Below are positions 49,315 through 54,756 of a stretch of DNA of 64,000 nt, piece after piece (positions within the stretch are counted from its first letter, which is position 1; each line of letters begins with the position of its first letter). Below the pieces are notes generated by a model that was not told where the DNA came from, made no database searches, and saw only the letters and a list, made by a program, of their open reading frames with translations. The position numbers were made by a program, and so were the translations under genes. The stretch is from an uncultured Paracoccaceae bacterium (GTDB lineage Bacteria > Bacteroidota > Bacteroidia > Flavobacteriales > Flavobacteriaceae): the NCBI GenBank assembly GCA_943788135.1, contig CALSPC010000003.1, forward strand, positions 434,001 through 498,000, in the 5' to 3' direction.

Positions 49315-51147
49315 ATGAAAAAAATTACATTACTATTAATTATGCTAACTATTAGTTTTAGTTATGCGCAAGATCTTCCTTTAGATTTTGAGACTAGTCC
49401 AGTTACCGCTGACATGTCAGGGTTTGATGGAGGAGTTATAACTGTTGAAGCTGTTGTGGCTCCGCAATCTACAGGGAATTCAAGTGTAAATTTAGCTAAA
49501 TTAGTTAAGGGTGCTGGTCAACCTTGGGCAGGGGCTAAAATTGTTTTAGACACTCCTTTTGATTTCTCAACTAATTCTAATATTGAAGCAAGAATATACA
49601 CTATAGCACCTGTGGGTTCTAAAATTGAATTTAAAGCCGAGGGTGTTGGCGCAGGAAGTGGAGCAAAGTATGCTTATACTACCAAGAGTGGAGAATGGGA
49701 GACTTTAACTTTCGATTTTTTAGGTGTAACGGCTACAAATTTAACAGATTTAGTCATTATTCCTTGGATGCCTGGTGATGCTCAAGGAGATGGTTCGGAA
49801 GCAGCTACTTTTTATTTTGATGACATAATACAAACTGCACCACCTGCAGCTACTTGTGACGATGGTATTCAAAACGGAGACGAAACAGGAATTGATTGTG
49901 GAGGTACTATTTGTGGTGCATGTCCAGAAGTTAAGTTACCTTTAGATTTTAGTGATGCTAGCCAATTATTTACGCATGATGGTGCTGGTGCTGGTGGCTC
50001 TGTAGTCTTGGAAAATGGAAAATTGAGATTTAATGGAAACGGACAGGCCTATGATCAAGCATACCTTGATTTAACAGAAGCTTTTTCTACAATCGATTCA
50101 GATAATAATACATTTACAGTTAGAATGGAACCTTTGTTAGTTCCTGCTGGAGAAGAGCGTACACATTTATTAAAAGTTAGTATTGGTGCAGGTGCAGCTA
50201 TTGAGATTACAGGAAAAAGTATTGGTCCTGATGAACAGGATGTAACCTTCAATTTTGGAACAACGGGTGCTGAACCCTGGAATCGAATTACAATTTTCAT
50301 GGATTTTGGTCCTGATGGTGCAAACACTTACAATGCTAAGGTTACGGATTACTTAATTTCTAGTATATCTCTTGGAGCAGATCCTGCTATTCCTCAGGTA
50401 CCACCAACTGTAGCAGCGCCAACGCCTCCTGCAAGAAATGCTGCGGATGTAATTTCAATATATTCAAAAACAACAGCTTCTGCTAGTGTATATTCAGATA
50501 TTGCTGGTGTAGATTTTCCAAATTGGGGTGGAAATTCTGGAAATGTTACTCCAATAGCTTTCGAAGATGATTTAGCGCTTAAACTTCCGGAATTTACATA
50601 CCAAGGAATTCAATTTCCTGAAACAGATTTATCTGGTATGACAATGTTACACTTAGATATTTGGGCGCAATCTCAGGGTGTAGGTCTTGATTTAATAGCG
50701 ACAGGCGGTGCTTCTAATCGTGTTAATATCGCTTCAAATGATGGTGAATGGAGTTCCGTAGATATTCTTTTAACAGCTTTCCCAAGTTTGGATTTAAGTA
50801 AAATTTTTCAAATGAAGTTTTATGGTCTTGATGGTGCAAACGCAGATGGATCTTATGATATCTATTTGGATAATATTTATCTTTATACAGGGACTGCTTT
50901 GAGTGTAGATAAAATCAACGTACTAAACGTTAATATGTATCCTAACCCAGCAAATGGTGTTGTATATTTCTCAACACCTGCAAATGATGCGTTAACAGTT
51001 TCAGTATTTGACCTATTAGGAAAACAAGTAATGGATGCTCAAAACGTACAGTCACAACTTAATATTTCTAGCTTAAACCCTGGAATGTATTTCGTGAAAA
51101 TGACTCAAGGTTCAAGTTCTGCTACTAAGAAATTAGTCGTAAAATAA
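49315..51147 (+). CDS. T9SS-secreted multi-domain protein, paralogue of the 47555 gene
   Basis: A 610 aa exported protein: signal peptide MKKITLLLIMLTISFSYAQ, a carbohydrate-binding-like module (residues about 20-175, ending TFYFDDI), and a cysteine-rich linker CDDGIQNGDETGIDCGGT. A second beta-rich module (about 205-350) is followed by a third beginning NAADVISIYSKTTASASVY. The T9SS domain contains YPNPANGVVYFS and LNPGMYFVKMTQG, ending TKKLVVK. The T9SS domain is roughly 60% identical to that of the 47555 gene. Likely surface glycan binding. Confidence 0.8.
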   Translation: MKKITLLLIMLTISFSYAQDLPLDFETSPVTADMSGFDGGVITVEAVVAPQSTGNSSVNLAKLVKGAGQPWAGAKIVLDTPFDFSTNSNIEARIYTIAPVGSKIEFKAEGVGAGSGAKYAYTTKSGEWETLTFDFLGVTATNLTDLVIIPWMPGDAQGDGSEAATFYFDDIIQTAPPAATCDDGIQNGDETGIDCGGTICGACPEVKLPLDFSDASQLFTHDGAGAGGSVVLENGKLRFNGNGQAYDQAYLDLTEAFSTIDSDNNTFTVRMEPLLVPAGEERTHLLKVSIGAGAAIEITGKSIGPDEQDVTFNFGTTGAEPWNRITIFMDFGPDGANTYNAKVTDYLISSISLGADPAIPQVPPTVAAPTPPARNAADVISIYSKTTASASVYSDIAGVDFPNWGGNSGNVTPIAFEDDLALKLPEFTYQGIQFPETDLSGMTMLHLDIWAQSQGVGLDLIATGGASNRVNIASNDGEWSSVDILLTAFPSLDLSKIFQMKFYGLDGANADGSYDIYLDNIYLYTGTALSVDKINVLNVNMYPNPANGVVYFSTPANDALTVSVFDLLGKQVMDAQNVQSQLNISSLNPGMYFVKMTQGSSSATKKLVVK

Positions 51148-51296: not shown

Positions 51297-51329
51297 AAAA
51301 AAGCAAGCGTTATGTTTTCGCTTGCCTTT
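51297..51329. terminator. Hairpin terminator next to repeat copy 1
   Basis: GCAAGCG-TTATGTTTT-CGCTTGC with A-rich and T-rich flanks can end transcription on either strand. Read on minus it follows the cassette at 51616-52304 and repeat copy 1. Its sequence differs from the hairpins before copies 2 and 3. Confidence 0.6.
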
Positions 51330-51339
51330 TATTTTATTC

Positions 51340-51402
51340 GTACACAACGTAGTCCAATTATCGAACTTTTTCTTGAAAGACCTTGAAAAACTTAGAGAGT
51401 TT
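51340..51402. repeat. Island direct repeat, copy 1
   Basis: A 63-bp unit beginning GTACACAACGTAGTCCAAT and containing TTATCGAACTTTTT. It differs from copy 3 (53880) at two positions and from copy 2 (52476) at about twelve. On the minus strand the changes are mostly synonymous or conservative in one frame (SFSRSFKKKFDNWTTLCT), as if each copy were the end of a coding sequence. Confidence 0.85.
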
Positions 51403-51473
51403 ACAGAATCCTGTAAAAAATATGAGGTTAAGAGAATTTAGTAAAGAGTTTAAAAATCAAAAAGTAGTATTAC

Positions 51474-51605
51474 TCAGGATTTAATATTTGAGAACAAGTT
51501 AATTGCAGTTTTATCGTTTGCTATAGCAACACCTATTGTATATATAGAACCAAGGCTATCTGAATCAATCACTTCACCAGTGTATGTAACAACCGACTCA
51601 AACTG
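51474..51605 (-). pseudogene. Possible gene remnant (open frame without start)
   Basis: A stop-free minus-strand frame of about 43 codons (VVTYTGEVIDSDSLGS ... INLFSNIKS) with protein-like composition but no start codon and an in-frame stop just before it. It follows the 166-residue gene and precedes repeat copy 1. It may be the end of a decayed gene; chance is possible at this length. This and the repeat account for most of the non-coding stretch 51205-51615. Confidence 0.3.
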
Positions 51606-51615
51606 TTATTTAACT

Positions 51616-52116
51616 CTATTTCTTATTAAATTCTGGTATCTCTTTTAAAATTCTATCATTAATATCGGACAATGCAAAACAATGAATAATCATCCTTGTA
51701 TCTTTTAGATATTTAGCAAATGCTAAATGCTCATCAGATCCATTTAACGATTTCAGATGTGTCATTTTTAGTTTAGCTGTACCATTTGCAAAAATTTTCG
51801 CAAAATCTTCAGTAATGGTGGGCATCTCAAAATGTATGAAACTTCTTTTATCTGCTAAAAATTTTGCTGCAGTATTAGACAAATCATACACTTTTGCAAG
51901 ACTGATTGACTTATTATGTATTGCTAAACACTCGGCAGCTTTGTCGGTTAGGACTTCTAAATCTCTAAGATCTAATACTTTCTCGGACTCAGCTAATACA
52001 ATGGCAGCTTCATCATCCATTTGACTGTACTCTCTCAAATCGATATCCCATTCATCATTTTTAATAGCTTTTTTAACCTTACGCTTGGCTATGTGTGCTT
52101 TAAGAACTTTTTCCAT
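51616..52116 (-). CDS. Small protein with LRR-like 22-24-residue repeats
   Basis: A 166 aa protein. After a basic N-terminus it has repeats of the form L-x-D-x-AA-x-x-LA-x-x-x-x-x-x-L-x-L: MDDEAAIVLAESEKVLDLRDL, LTDKAAECLAIHNKSISLAKV, LSNTAAKFLADKRSFIHFEM. Then come two degenerate units. This is a bacterial leucine-rich-repeat-like pattern, suggesting protein binding. No signal peptide. It follows the 61-residue gene by two bases within an AT-rich island bounded by repeat copies 1 and 2. Function unknown. Confidence 0.6.
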   Translation of the reverse strand: MEKVLKAHIAKRKVKKAIKNDEWDIDLREYSQMDDEAAIVLAESEKVLDLRDLEVLTDKAAECLAIHNKSISLAKVYDLSNTAAKFLADKRSFIHFEMPTITEDFAKIFANGTAKLKMTHLKSLNGSDEHLAFAKYLKDTRMIIHCFALSDINDRILKEIPEFNKK

Positions 52117-52118
52117 AA

Positions 52119-52304
52119 TTATTTCAATTTGACATTTATTAAAAATTTTTTTAAATCTTCTTTTATGAAATCAAGATACTGTGCAAAGTGCCAGTCTTTA
52201 CTATCAAGTTTTTTTTTGGTAGCATCAATCTTTTTTAGGATACTTTCTGAATCCGCTGCAAATTCTTCTCGCAACTTTTGCTTTTCATCATTTGTTAATA
52301 TCAT
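52119..52304 (-). CDS. Small helical protein of unknown function
   Basis: A 61 aa, Lys/Asp/Glu-rich, probably alpha-helical protein (EKQKLREEFAADSESILKKI, DFIKEDLKKFLINVK). It lies immediately upstream of, and in line with, the LRR-like gene, so the two form a small operon. No family recognised. Paired small genes between repeats resemble toxin-antitoxin or immunity cassettes, but there is no direct evidence. Confidence 0.5.
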   Translation of the reverse strand: MILTNDEKQKLREEFAADSESILKKIDATKKKLDSKDWHFAQYLDFIKEDLKKFLINVKLK

Positions 52305-52434
52305 TTGGACCTATTTATGATTATTTTTTTTTGTTCGTTCTAACTTATTGCTAATTTAATCAAAAAATATTCTTACAAAACCTGGTAATATTTAAGTCCC
52401 ATTTATATGTGACTGTTTGTGATAAACTTTAAAT

Positions 52435-52538
52435 AATTATCCCCAAAAACAATAAATTATTTTTGAGGATAATTTGTACACAACGTACTCCAATTATCGA
52501 ACTTTTTTTTGAAAGATTTAGAAAAGTTAAGGAAATTT
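52435..52538. repeat. Island direct repeat, copy 2, with hairpin
   Basis: A long hairpin AATTATCC...GGATAATT (52435-52474) is joined to the 63-bp unit at 52476-52538 (GTACACAACGTACTCCAATT...). The hairpin is nearly the same sequence as the terminator behind tRNA-Leu(CAA) at 54633-54672. The 63-bp unit differs from copies 1 and 3 at about ten positions, so it is the oldest or most diverged copy. Confidence 0.85.
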
Positions 52539-52599
52539 AATCTTAAGTTAAATTCAAAAAAAATTCTTATATTTAAGCTTAACTAATTTTAAAACTATT

Positions 52600-52971
52600 T
52601 TGTACTTTATTGGAATTAATGTCCCGTTTAATTGTTCTATGGAAGACCCGGTTGAAGATTATATTTTAAAAGAAAAATTGGATAATGACAGAGATTTATG
52701 GGATGAGCAGTGCTGGGGTTTTTATGATGAAATTGATTTAAAACTATTTAGGGAAGATTTGTTTTTAGATGTTGACGAGGACGGTATACAAACCAATATA
52801 AAATCAGATAATAAATTTAGTAAAGAGTTTATTGATTTATCTCTGTCGATTGGGTATAACTTTATTTATTTTGATAAAGATTTTAATAAAATTAGTAAAG
52901 ACGCTTTTATTAAATTAACAAAAAGTTCTACGGAATTCACATTATCTATATGTCAATGTTCACCAGACTAA
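52600..52971 (+). CDS. Strongly acidic small protein, cassette gene 1
   Basis: A 123 aa protein with about 27 Asp/Glu against about 13 Lys/Arg; no family recognised. Start is TTG at 52600 (an ATG 13 codons later, at 52639, is possible). Segments such as EDPVEDYILKEKLDNDRD and DLFLDVDEDG make it very acidic. It lies 17 bases upstream of the GIY-YIG-like gene on one transcript. The acidity would suit an inhibitor or DNA-mimic partner of a nuclease, which is inference. Confidence 0.55.
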   Translation: MYFIGINVPFNCSMEDPVEDYILKEKLDNDRDLWDEQCWGFYDEIDLKLFREDLFLDVDEDGIQTNIKSDNKFSKEFIDLSLSIGYNFIYFDKDFNKISKDAFIKLTKSSTEFTLSICQCSPD

Positions 52972-52988
52972 TCTTTTGTCCATAGGAA

Positions 52989-53483
52989 ATGAAAAAAAAC
53001 ATAACTAAAAGTTATTTATTTGTGACAGAATTGGTTGAAGAGTTTAATTCGATGTTTCATATAGAAAAAATTGAGTTAAAAAGATTTGATGAATTCAAAT
53101 CAAGAGATTATTTCAAGAAAAAAATAGATTCAAATTTAAACAAAACAAAAGGAGTTTATTTATTTCAAACAAAAAAAGATGGAATTATTTATATTGGGTC
53201 ATCAGGTAAAGTAATTGATGAAGAGACTAAATCAAGTCAAGGAATAAGAAGTAGAATACTAAATGGTTCATCACCTTATAAATTAGATGGAGAATTTTTA
53301 AAATACATAGATTCTAAATCAAATAATTATTCTGAAAAGAACTATAGGTTAAAGAATTTAGAGATTTATTATTACGAAATTGGTGATGGAATTTTCACAA
53401 TACCTTCAGTTTTAGAACATTTAATGATTCAGGTTTTTTTTAATAAAATAGGAAGAATTCCTAAAATTAACAGAAAATTATAA
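52989..53483 (+). CDS. GIY-YIG nuclease-like protein, cassette gene 2
   Basis: A 164 aa basic protein with the GIY-YIG catalytic pattern: G-V-Y at residues 55-57, Y-I-G at 68-70 (IIYIGSSGK), Arg near 87 (GIRSRI), Glu 143 (VLEHLMIQ) and Asn 161 near the end. The roughly 45-residue N-terminal extension is helical and unlike UvrC or homing enzymes. GIY-YIG domains cut DNA in restriction, repair and mobile-element systems. AT-rich codon use. Flanked tightly by two acidic small genes. Confidence 0.65.
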   Translation: MKKNITKSYLFVTELVEEFNSMFHIEKIELKRFDEFKSRDYFKKKIDSNLNKTKGVYLFQTKKDGIIYIGSSGKVIDEETKSSQGIRSRILNGSSPYKLDGEFLKYIDSKSNNYSEKNYRLKNLEIYYYEIGDGIFTIPSVLEHLMIQVFFNKIGRIPKINRKL

Positions 53484-53493
53484 AAATTTAATT

Positions 53494-53769
53494 ATGCAAG
53501 AATATAACAAAGAAAAATATCGTGTTTGCTTAGATAAATACCTAAACGAAGATGGAGATGCCTATGCGCACGCTATAGAATTAGCTATAACAGATGGAGT
53601 AGATGGTTTTGGAGTAGAACCTTTAAAATATGCAAAAACTGAGGGAGAAGATTTAGACGATAACTGGGGAGTAGAAATAACTAGATTGGTGTACTTTAAT
53701 GACCTTGATAAAGCTAATAAAAGTTTTGCCGAATCTTGTGAAGACTATGATTTAAATATTCATGTATAA
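53494..53769 (+). CDS. Acidic small protein, cassette gene 3
   Basis: A 91 aa protein with about 22 acidic and 10 basic residues. Segments: LDKYLNEDGDAYAHAIELAITDGVDGFG, TEGEDLDDNWGVEITRLVYF, FAESCEDYDLNIHV. It begins ten bases after the GIY-YIG-like gene. No family recognised with confidence. It may be an immunity or antitoxin-type partner; this rests only on context and charge. Confidence 0.55.
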   Translation: MQEYNKEKYRVCLDKYLNEDGDAYAHAIELAITDGVDGFGVEPLKYAKTEGEDLDDNWGVEITRLVYFNDLDKANKSFAESCEDYDLNIHV

Positions 53770-53840
53770 TAATTTATTCTGGTTTTTTAGTTATTTAATT
53801 ACTTATAATAGTACCTCGTTAGCGGTCGGTTTAAAAATAT

Positions 53841-53942
53841 TTATCCCCAAAAAAAATAAATTATTCTTGAGGATAATTTGTACACAACGTAGTCCAATTA
53901 TCGAACTTTTTCTTGAAAGACCTTGAAAAGCTCAGAGAGTTT
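53841..53942. repeat. Island direct repeat, copy 3, with hairpin
   Basis: Hairpin TTATCC...GGATAA (53841-53876) followed by the 63-bp unit at 53880-53942, almost identical to copy 1. The hairpin matches the tRNA-Leu(CAA) terminator over about 40 bases, including AAATTATTCTTG. It closes the GIY-YIG cassette on the right. Confidence 0.85.
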
Positions 53943-53972
53943 GCATTTGATTATAAAATTAAGCATTTATAA

Positions 53973-54602
53973 TTATTGTCTGAGTAAATTCATTTCAATT
54001 CTAAGGGTTGTTGGTATACTGGCATTAAGACCACTACCACCTTCTCCTAAAGTTGCAAAGTAAACAGTTTTTTCATAAGTGGCTTTGAAAGTTCTTGAGC
54101 CAGATTGTCCTAAGTCTGTTATTTGTATATCAGTCATCATTCGGTTTAAATGAGAATTTTCAGACCAATCCCCCGGGATTTCTCTAAAAACGAGACCTAC
54201 AATTTCTGAATTTGAAGTGCCTGTGGCATTATTCATAGCATCGTGCATAAATCCTCCAGTTAAATTAAGTCCTATACCGACATTAGAATTCCCAACTTGA
54301 GGTTCTTCAATTGATAATTGAAATGTAAAGTATTCACCAGTCACAAAATCGTTATTAGTAATGTCGGCAATAGATAGCCAAACATATGTTTCGGCTCCAT
54401 AAATAGTGAAACAACTGTTGGGGCTTTGTCCCATAGGCGGTGTTGTCAAATTCGCGATACCTTCAACTCGATTAATAACTCCAAACACTTCTAATTCAAA
54501 AAAATAACTTATTTCACTATCACTAATATTATTATTTTGATTGCTTTCATCTCCGGAACATCCAAGGATTAAAAAAGCGGAGAGTAAGAACAGTTTTTTC
54601 AT
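53973..54602 (-). CDS. Putative lipoprotein, unknown function
   Basis: A 209 aa protein with signal peptide and lipobox LILGCSGD (Cys near 15). The mature part is beta-rich (YFFELEVFGVINRVEGIANL, YVWLSIADIT, FTFQLSIEEP, RTFKATYEKTVYFATLGEGG). No family recognised. It sits between repeat copy 3 and the tRNA-Leu(CAA) terminator, so it belongs to the same insertion-prone spot. Confidence 0.65.
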   Translation of the reverse strand: MKKLFLLSAFLILGCSGDESNQNNNISDSEISYFFELEVFGVINRVEGIANLTTPPMGQSPNSCFTIYGAETYVWLSIADITNNDFVTGEYFTFQLSIEEPQVGNSNVGIGLNLTGGFMHDAMNNATGTSNSEIVGLVFREIPGDWSENSHLNRMMTDIQITDLGQSGSRTFKATYEKTVYFATLGEGGSGLNASIPTTLRIEMNLLRQ

Positions 54603-54632
54603 TGGTTAATTATTTGAATGCCAAGTTAAAAA

Positions 54633-54672
54633 AATTATCCCTAAAAACATTAAATTATTCTTGGGGATAATT
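54633..54672 (-). terminator. Terminator after tRNA-Leu(CAA)
   Basis: AATTATCC...GGATAATT with an A/T-rich inner part, followed on minus by a T run. It lies three bases beyond the tRNA 3' end. The same hairpin recurs beside repeat copies 2 and 3. Confidence 0.75.
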
Positions 54673-54674
54673 TG

Positions 54675-54756
54675 TACTCAAGGTGGGAATCGAACCCACA
54701 CGACCGAAGTCACTGGATTTTGAATCCAGCGCGTCTACCAATTCCGCCACTTGAGC
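54675..54756 (-). tRNA. tRNA-Leu (anticodon CAA)
   Basis: Class II tRNA of 82 nt. Acceptor GCTCAAG pairs with CTTGAGT (one G-T pair), the anticodon arm is CTGGA-TTCAAAA-TCCAG giving anticodon CAA, the long variable arm is TGACTTCGGTCGTG, and the T-loop is TTCGATT. CCA is not encoded. A TAGTTTTG promoter element lies upstream (complement of 54769-54776). It marks the right border of the accessory island. Confidence 0.96.

Follow-up and report, generated by a model that had tools for sequence, protein, structure and literature searches.

The locus

The window considered here, a stretch of 64,000 nucleotides (G000:C3:434001-498000), comes from a 1.91-Mb source genome (G000) that is 92% complete. 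Its gene content points to Flavobacteriaceae, as does the relative L058, an uncultured MAG of that family. At positions 52600-53769 it holds three ORFs on the + strand, designated P1, P2 and P3, that are separated by gaps of 17 and 10 bases (Table 1). A preceding sequence-only reading of this DNA had remarked on this spacing and on the pairing of a basic nuclease with small acidic neighbours, and both observations are confirmed by the coordinates and the computed isoelectric points. The tight spacing suggests that the trio is co-transcribed. Strong acidity is uncommon in the window, but it is not unique: a pI below 4.5 is computed for 5 of the 53 ORFs of at least 150 aa, and a 209-aa lipoprotein encoded in the adjoining unit is also acidic (pI 4.36). 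The true start of P1 is uncertain, since an in-frame ATG at 52639 would yield a protein of 110 aa; P2 may start near Met22, the point at which its relatives begin.

Table 1. Features of the tRNA-Leu(caa) array (window coordinates; R, repeat; T, hairpin)
Feature	Position	Strand	Basis or remark
P1, acidic orphan protein, 123 aa from TTG	52600..52971	+	ORF; computed pI 4.19
P2, divergent GIY-YIG-type nuclease-like protein, 164 aa	52989..53483	+	profiles, aligned catalytic columns; computed pI 9.49
P3, acidic protein, 91 aa	53494..53769	+	70% identity to L058:5001-5270; computed pI 4.24
tRNA-Leu (caa), intact target gene	54674..54756	-	
Cassette A, 794 bp, closest to tRNA: R3, lipoprotein gene 53973-54602(-), T1	53880..54673		repeat spacing 794
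Cassette B, 1404 bp, carries the trio: R2, trio, T3	52476..53879		repeat spacing 1404
Cassette C, 1136 bp, farthest from tRNA: R1, two - strand genes (51616-52116, 52119-52304), T2	51340..52475		repeat spacing 1136
R3 repeat, tRNA-3'-end-like core GTACACAACGTAGTCCAATTATCGAAC and conserved tail	53880..53942	+	
R2 repeat	52476..52538	+	26/27 core bases
R1 repeat, outermost, adjoins displaced tRNA-Leu terminator	51340..51402	+	
T1 palindromic hairpin, flush with tRNA-Leu 3' end	54632..54673	-	fold z -4.8
T2 palindromic terminator-like hairpin	52437..52475	-	fold z -6.5
T3 palindromic terminator-like hairpin	53841..53879	-	fold z -4.2
Displaced tRNA-Leu terminator (CAAGCG hairpin)	51300..51330		alignment with relative G307

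The genes are part of a larger arrangement. Three units lie head to tail behind tRNA-Leu(caa), each with a hairpin, T, on its tRNA side and a repeat, R, on its far side, so that the order away from the tRNA gene is T, lipoprotein gene, R, T, trio, R, T, two genes, R. The stretch that they make up (51340-54673) is AT-rich, with 28.7% GC vs 36.3% for the window. It is flanked on one side by a gene (49315-51147) for what we take, from reading its sequence, to be a secreted protein of T9SS type; on the other side, beyond the tRNA gene, lies what is presumably prs, named in the same way. The 27-base R core occurs three times in the window (allowing up to 3 mismatches) vs 0.00 times expected from 100 shuffles, and the T palindromes fold with z scores of -4.2 to -6.5 (five copies tested). 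The repeats in which the trio had earlier been placed are accordingly real, but they are not parts of a module; what they mark is the boundaries of tRNA-associated units. Integrase and transfer families were sought among the six array proteins in Pfam, NCBIfam and PHROGs, and none was found. One of these proteins, the 166-aa product of 51616-52116 in cassette C, has a repeat pattern that looks by eye like a leucine-rich-repeat variant and has no Pfam match.

Beyond R1, the outermost repeat, lies a CAAGCG hairpin that in the relative G307 follows an uninterrupted tRNA-Leu directly on its 3' side; the array has for this reason most likely been inserted between tRNA-Leu(caa) and that tRNA's own terminator. 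Of the two R-free flanks that were aligned, G307 and G311, the latter has other sequence behind its tRNA-Leu and does not share the displaced terminator. GTAC is present at both edges of the array. Past its core R reads as SNFFLKDLEKLREF, and this tail (51360-51441, 52496-52585 and 53900-53971, and the R copies in L018, L083, L084 and L094) resembles coding sequence though no gene runs into it. When eight copies are compared, the codon-pair differences in the SNFFLKDLEKLREF frame, mostly third-position changes, comprise 76 synonymous and 69 non-synonymous ones, the corresponding figures being 13/139 and 5/140 for the other forward frames and 64/81 (also high), 2/150 and 15/137 for the reverse frames. 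It is possible, on this pattern, that R has kept the 3' end of a recombinase gene which, in an ancestral element, ran across the attachment site.

The repeated ends at other tRNA genes

A query of T and R together has 17 listed matches in its own genome, eight of them at E<=0.01. These eight are the T and R copies of this array, a T and an R at tRNA-Arg, a reverse read of T1 and, on contig C9, one T-like hairpin; the nine listed matches that remain extend over 18-35 bases at E 0.055 or worse. Behind tRNA-Arg(tcg) of the same genome the arrangement is T, an 82-aa gene and R (core 26/27). Behind tRNA-Leu(taa) of G043, which belongs to another genus, it is T, a 363-aa gene whose product has MORN and aspartyl-protease domains, R (core 27/27, identical to R1) and then a different hairpin. 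The stretch from T to the start codon is alike at the left ends of the G043 unit and of the lipoprotein unit, and no integrase family is found in the cargo of either the tRNA-Arg unit or the G043 unit. The R core is thus conserved at 26-27 of 27 bases at all three tRNA genes. R is beyond doubt in two of the 397 genomes sampled from the family, G043 being the clear case besides G000. A further match, in G266, was judged likely to be due to chance and was not counted: it has one mismatch, its 19.5 kb contain no tRNA gene, and a control pattern produced two matches by chance in other genomes.

Within the genus (18 genomes), three were accepted as having R, namely G000, G304 and G306, and G307 has an R-like sequence. 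The G304 contig, on which the genes neighbouring the locus are shared at 97-100% identity, has at the same place a counterpart of R (23/27) followed by other cargo. In G306 two other genes, one of them for a tRNA_anti-like protein, lie between an R whose core has a one-base gap and a further copy that consists of the tail only. The combined query matches 14 of the 18 at E<=0.01, mostly, as judged by eye, through T alone or over short lengths. T could, taken alone, be an ordinary tRNA terminator that is copied along with the tRNA end, because it follows tRNA genes in several congeners that have no visible R. Searches for R among viral_contigs, phages and plasmids gave no match.

G307 also provides the nearest candidate for an autonomous relative of the units: an island at tRNA-Leu(taa) (L085:1551-5653) that encodes a 382-aa tyrosine recombinase of its own (Phage_integrase, E 2.4e-39) and whose distal end is R-like, not identical to R. 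No integrase with att ends matching R or T was found and an assembly cannot show excision or circles, so that we infer the mobility of the units rather than observe it. At tRNA-Leu(caa), the site of the array, a different island is present in G314, where the C-terminus of what we take, from its sequence, to be a serine-recombinase-like ORF (L073:10822-12438) runs into that tRNA-Leu. The draft contigs L074, L075 and L076 (of G309, G299 and G300) stop at this tRNA gene, that of G300 just inside it, as would be expected if repeated cassettes break assemblies there.

The basic protein, P2

The GIY-YIG pattern that had been noticed in P2 (GVY at 55-57, YIG at 68-70, R89, E143, N161) has stood up to profile comparison. 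The Pfam model GIY-YIG (PF01541) itself scores P2 at only 10.3 bits (E 0.92), below its curated cut-off of 22.6. A profile of P2 and four relatives, aligned by hhalign with three GIY-YIG domains, gives a probability of 85.9, E 5.3e-6 and a score of 38.5, and the alignment spans 84 columns, in which GVY, YIG, R, E and N coincide; the best of 60 column-shuffled profiles of the same group scores 17.25 vs 38.46 for the real one, and a P3 profile used as a control gives E 0.56 against the same domains. These results support the assignment of P2 as a divergent member of the GIY-YIG family. The N-terminus that had looked unfamiliar corresponds to about the first 21-28 residues, which all four relatives lack, and Pfam recognises no second domain. 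The single-sequence structure model is too poor to use (mean pLDDT 39.1, pTM 0.34); its order of elements around the motif, strand-strand-helix-helix-strand-helix, matches the family and proves nothing at this confidence. An earlier PDB search reached UvrC only weakly (E 0.41). A PDB match of the profile to 8fje (E 0.0013) was dropped, the chain being repetitive and a short motif being matched in three of its repeats. P2 aligns with the N-terminal GIY-YIG domain of UvrC through GVY, YIG, R, E and N; it differs in being small and free-standing, and identity in the alignment is 19%. For the trio as a whole, NCBIfam, PHROGs and PADLOC yield weak matches only, that to UzuA in PADLOC having E 0.001 over 40 residues. 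Searches of phages, plasmids and viral_contigs with P2 give no match.

Relatives of P2 are scattered. A search with the single sequence finds three other genomes at E<=0.001 among 299 of the family; a profile of P2 and two of those proteins extends this to nine of the 299, of which five (G000, G134, G225, G181 and G127) have full-length members. The remaining matches, in G043, G193, G264 and G275, are partial. That in G043 (E 1e-4) is a 608-aa frame that we read as UvrC, a GIY-YIG protein; that in G193 is a 451-aa frame, presumably of an exonuclease type with a GIY-YIG stretch; that in G264 is part of a 607-aa frame; and that in G275 is short and weak. In the 18 genomes of the genus the profile finds P2 in G000 only. 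Pfam GIY-YIG scores the distant relative L025 at 20.9 bits, under the 22.6 cut-off, and does not match L023 or L024 at E<=0.1. The motif is eroded in the relatives from G181 (EVY for GVY, Lys for Arg) and G127 (GIF, MVG, Lys), and part of the group may for this reason have lost activity.

Two of the four other full-length relatives are situated in type I restriction operons, as labelled by Pfam. In G181, Methylase_S (HsdS) directly precedes the gene, HsdM_N/N6_Mtase lies farther upstream and HSDR_N/T1RH-like_C (HsdR) is found downstream; the G134 gene has HsdM on one side and HsdR on the other, and adjoins a gene for a Mrr_cat protein. From reading of the surrounding sequence, we take the G225 gene to lie amid small genes with a recombinase-like fragment near, the G127 gene between housekeeping-like and sigma-factor-like genes, and a more distant match, in G031, behind an HsdS-like gene. 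The restriction loci make a defence role for P2 plausible. GIY-YIG nucleases with roles in defence are also known, CMoRE/PD-T4-3 (PMC12923530) and SNIPE (PMC13190303), which P2, going by the partial descriptions of these systems, would resemble in its GIY-YIG catalytic domain and its likely defence setting; it differs in that Pfam detects no second domain in it. That P2 is a free-standing nuclease acting on foreign DNA is a tentative proposal, drawn from the family to which P2 belongs, from the relatives in restriction loci and from these defence proteins, and we hold it at somewhat less than even odds. The portions of the literature available on GIY-YIG proteins in type I loci contain no apparent description of the present case. 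If the assignment is right, GIY-YIG proteins gain, in the P2 group, a divergent lineage that is partly housed in restriction loci.

The acidic proteins, P1 and P3

Both acidic proteins had been called unrecognised, and for P1 the description holds throughout the family searches. No family in Pfam, NCBIfam, PHROGs or PADLOC matches it above chance, it occurs in G000 only among the 18 genomes of the genus, it has no match in plasmids and viral_contigs, and 299 genomes of the family yield weak matches and no convincing relative. Matches at E<=0.1 in 38 of these 299 (its own included) were set down to chance: the best other one has E 0.003, and the frames are very unequal in length, some with stops.

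For P3 one relative was found. It comes from an uncultured Flavobacteriaceae MAG (L058, 70% identity) and was detected by one pattern-based scan of a collection of 84,980 species, a procedure that detects close relatives only. No relative was accepted among 299 genomes of the family, a two-row profile finds none among 296 genomes of the order, and phages, plasmids and viral_contigs hold no match; nor do viral_contigs match a further query, A2. Matches in G239 and G276 fall inside ORFs that read as a peptidyl-prolyl-isomerase-like and a MiaB-like protein, and were rejected as chance. The structure model of P3 (pLDDT 43) is too poor to use. Between P3 and its relative dN is 0.16 and dS 0.29, a pair of values that suggests mild purifying selection at most. 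The L058 gene stands alone, with no P1 or P2 in the surrounding 10.3 kb. The gene of a tyrosine recombinase (442 aa, domains Arm-DNA-bind_5 and Phage_int_SAM_5) is 52 bases away, and just past it a tRNA-3'-end-like stretch can be seen by eye.

A proposed mobilizable unit and its cargo

Taken together, these observations are best accounted for if the trio is cargo carried by one of several tiny, integrase-less, CIME-like elements arrayed in tandem behind tRNA-Leu(caa), a reading to which we assign a probability of about 0.6. R and T would serve as attachment ends for a tyrosine recombinase provided in trans; site-specific integration, either at the tRNA end or into an R/T junction already in place, would have brought in each unit; and the stacking of units would be accretion, as for CIMEs. 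P1, P2 and P3 would have been brought together by capture and not as an obligate toxin-antitoxin set, P2 being a stand-alone divergent GIY-YIG nuclease directed most likely against foreign DNA, and P1 and P3 small acidic accessory proteins, each independent or, at most, a facultative partner. The accretion reading is preferred because the ends are repeated, insertion is behind intact tRNA genes, the cargo is varied, the units are stacked in tandem and integrases are absent from them. CIMEs are cis-mobilizable elements, and their tandem accretion at the 3' end of a gene has been described (PMC5704250). The units here have direct-repeat, att-like ends on both sides and are inserted at the 3' end of an intact target gene, tRNA-Leu, the features by which CIMEs are recognised; as far as the part of that description available extends, they also share the lack of integration and transfer genes and the head-to-tail arrangement. 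They differ in size (~0.5-1.5 kb, with one to three genes) and in that the searches revealed no autonomous partner sharing their ends. The tandem islands at ssrA of Dehalococcoides, 15 of which have no integration module, are parted by direct repeats of the ssrA 3' end (PMC3146451), and on the partial account at hand they are likewise stacked behind an RNA gene with repeats between them and without integrases. Their repeat is the ssrA 3' end itself, whereas R is merely tRNA-like and is near-identical at three tRNA genes. Judged from the assembled sequences, the small unit size and the near-identity of R at three different tRNA genes are what is unusual relative to known elements, and no precedent for such arrays in Flavobacteria is apparent in the portions of the literature available.

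The sequence-only reading had proposed that the three genes form a toxin-antitoxin, effector-immunity or anti-phage module, in which a basic GIY-YIG toxin, P2, would be neutralised by acidic P1, P3 or both. The notion draws on the tight same-strand spacing, the opposite charges (pI 4.2/9.5/4.2), the confinement of the trio to one unit, the weak UzuA match and the occurrence of GIY-YIG domains in CMoRE and SNIPE, insofar as the descriptions of those proteins extend. It fares badly when the genes are followed elsewhere. A search for co-occurrence found P1, P2 and P3 together nowhere else; tblastn of P1 and P3 around the four full-length P2 relatives (9.9-16.0 kb each) finds nothing at E<=1, and the result is the same when the G031 stretch is included (five stretches, 3.2-16.0 kb). 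P3 occurs in L058 without the other two, P1 has no convincing relative in the family or the genus, and the acidity is shared by the lipoprotein of another unit. An obligate trio was rejected on account of the solitary P3 and the partnerless P2 relatives, and a true three-gene module is improbable, though a genuine operon of three genes could still lie within a small unit bounded by R. A resemblance to integron gene cassettes, in an integron or in a cluster lacking an integron integrase, is suggested by one- to three-gene units of diverse cargo parted by a repeated site; with cargo genes on both strands, units flush behind tRNA genes, a tRNA-3'-end-like R core with no obvious attC (by eye) and array proteins without an integrase, this identity is scarcely credible.

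Two further accounts retain the tRNA gene as a target. The array might be what is left of genomic islands that integrated repeatedly at a tRNA hot spot and then suffered deletions, leaving att scars and a few genes, with no small cassette ever having been mobile. That tRNA-Leu(caa) is a hot spot is apparent from the island of presumed serine-recombinase type in G314 and from the other contents in G311. Decay of this kind is, in the part of the account available, the origin described for CIMEs (PMC5704250). The same small T-cargo-R format at three tRNA genes in two genera, with R cores as alike as those found here, is not easily obtained by independent decay, and we consider this history unlikely. 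At the other extreme, the T-cargo-R units could constitute a distinct, actively moving class of cassettes: sub-2-kb, integrase-less, caught serially at tRNA 3' ends through the tRNA-mimic R by a recombinase acting in trans, in the manner of an integron with the tRNA gene as its attI, and spreading orphan genes, new nucleases among them, between genera. This proposal goes further than the CIME-like reading and is doubtful. If the CIME-like reading is right, the guessed three-gene system gives way to a mechanism of delivery, in which tiny cassettes whose ends can be read stack behind tRNA genes, and T and R can be used to search this bacterial family for orphan cargo genes.

Two other stretches bear a resemblance to such arrays. 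On contig C9 of the source genome (L019:5520-5700), two tRNA-3'-end-like stretches in tandem, parted by a T-like palindrome, can be seen by eye upstream of a large secreted-protein gene, and this is possibly another relic array. L058:1000-7000 presents an array of a second kind, in which decayed 3' tail copies of a small ORF (MPRPKGSPNK...MPLFVD) separate single-gene stretches; one of these stretches holds P3 together with the 442-aa tyrosine recombinase, and is perhaps an autonomous unit among integrase-less ones.
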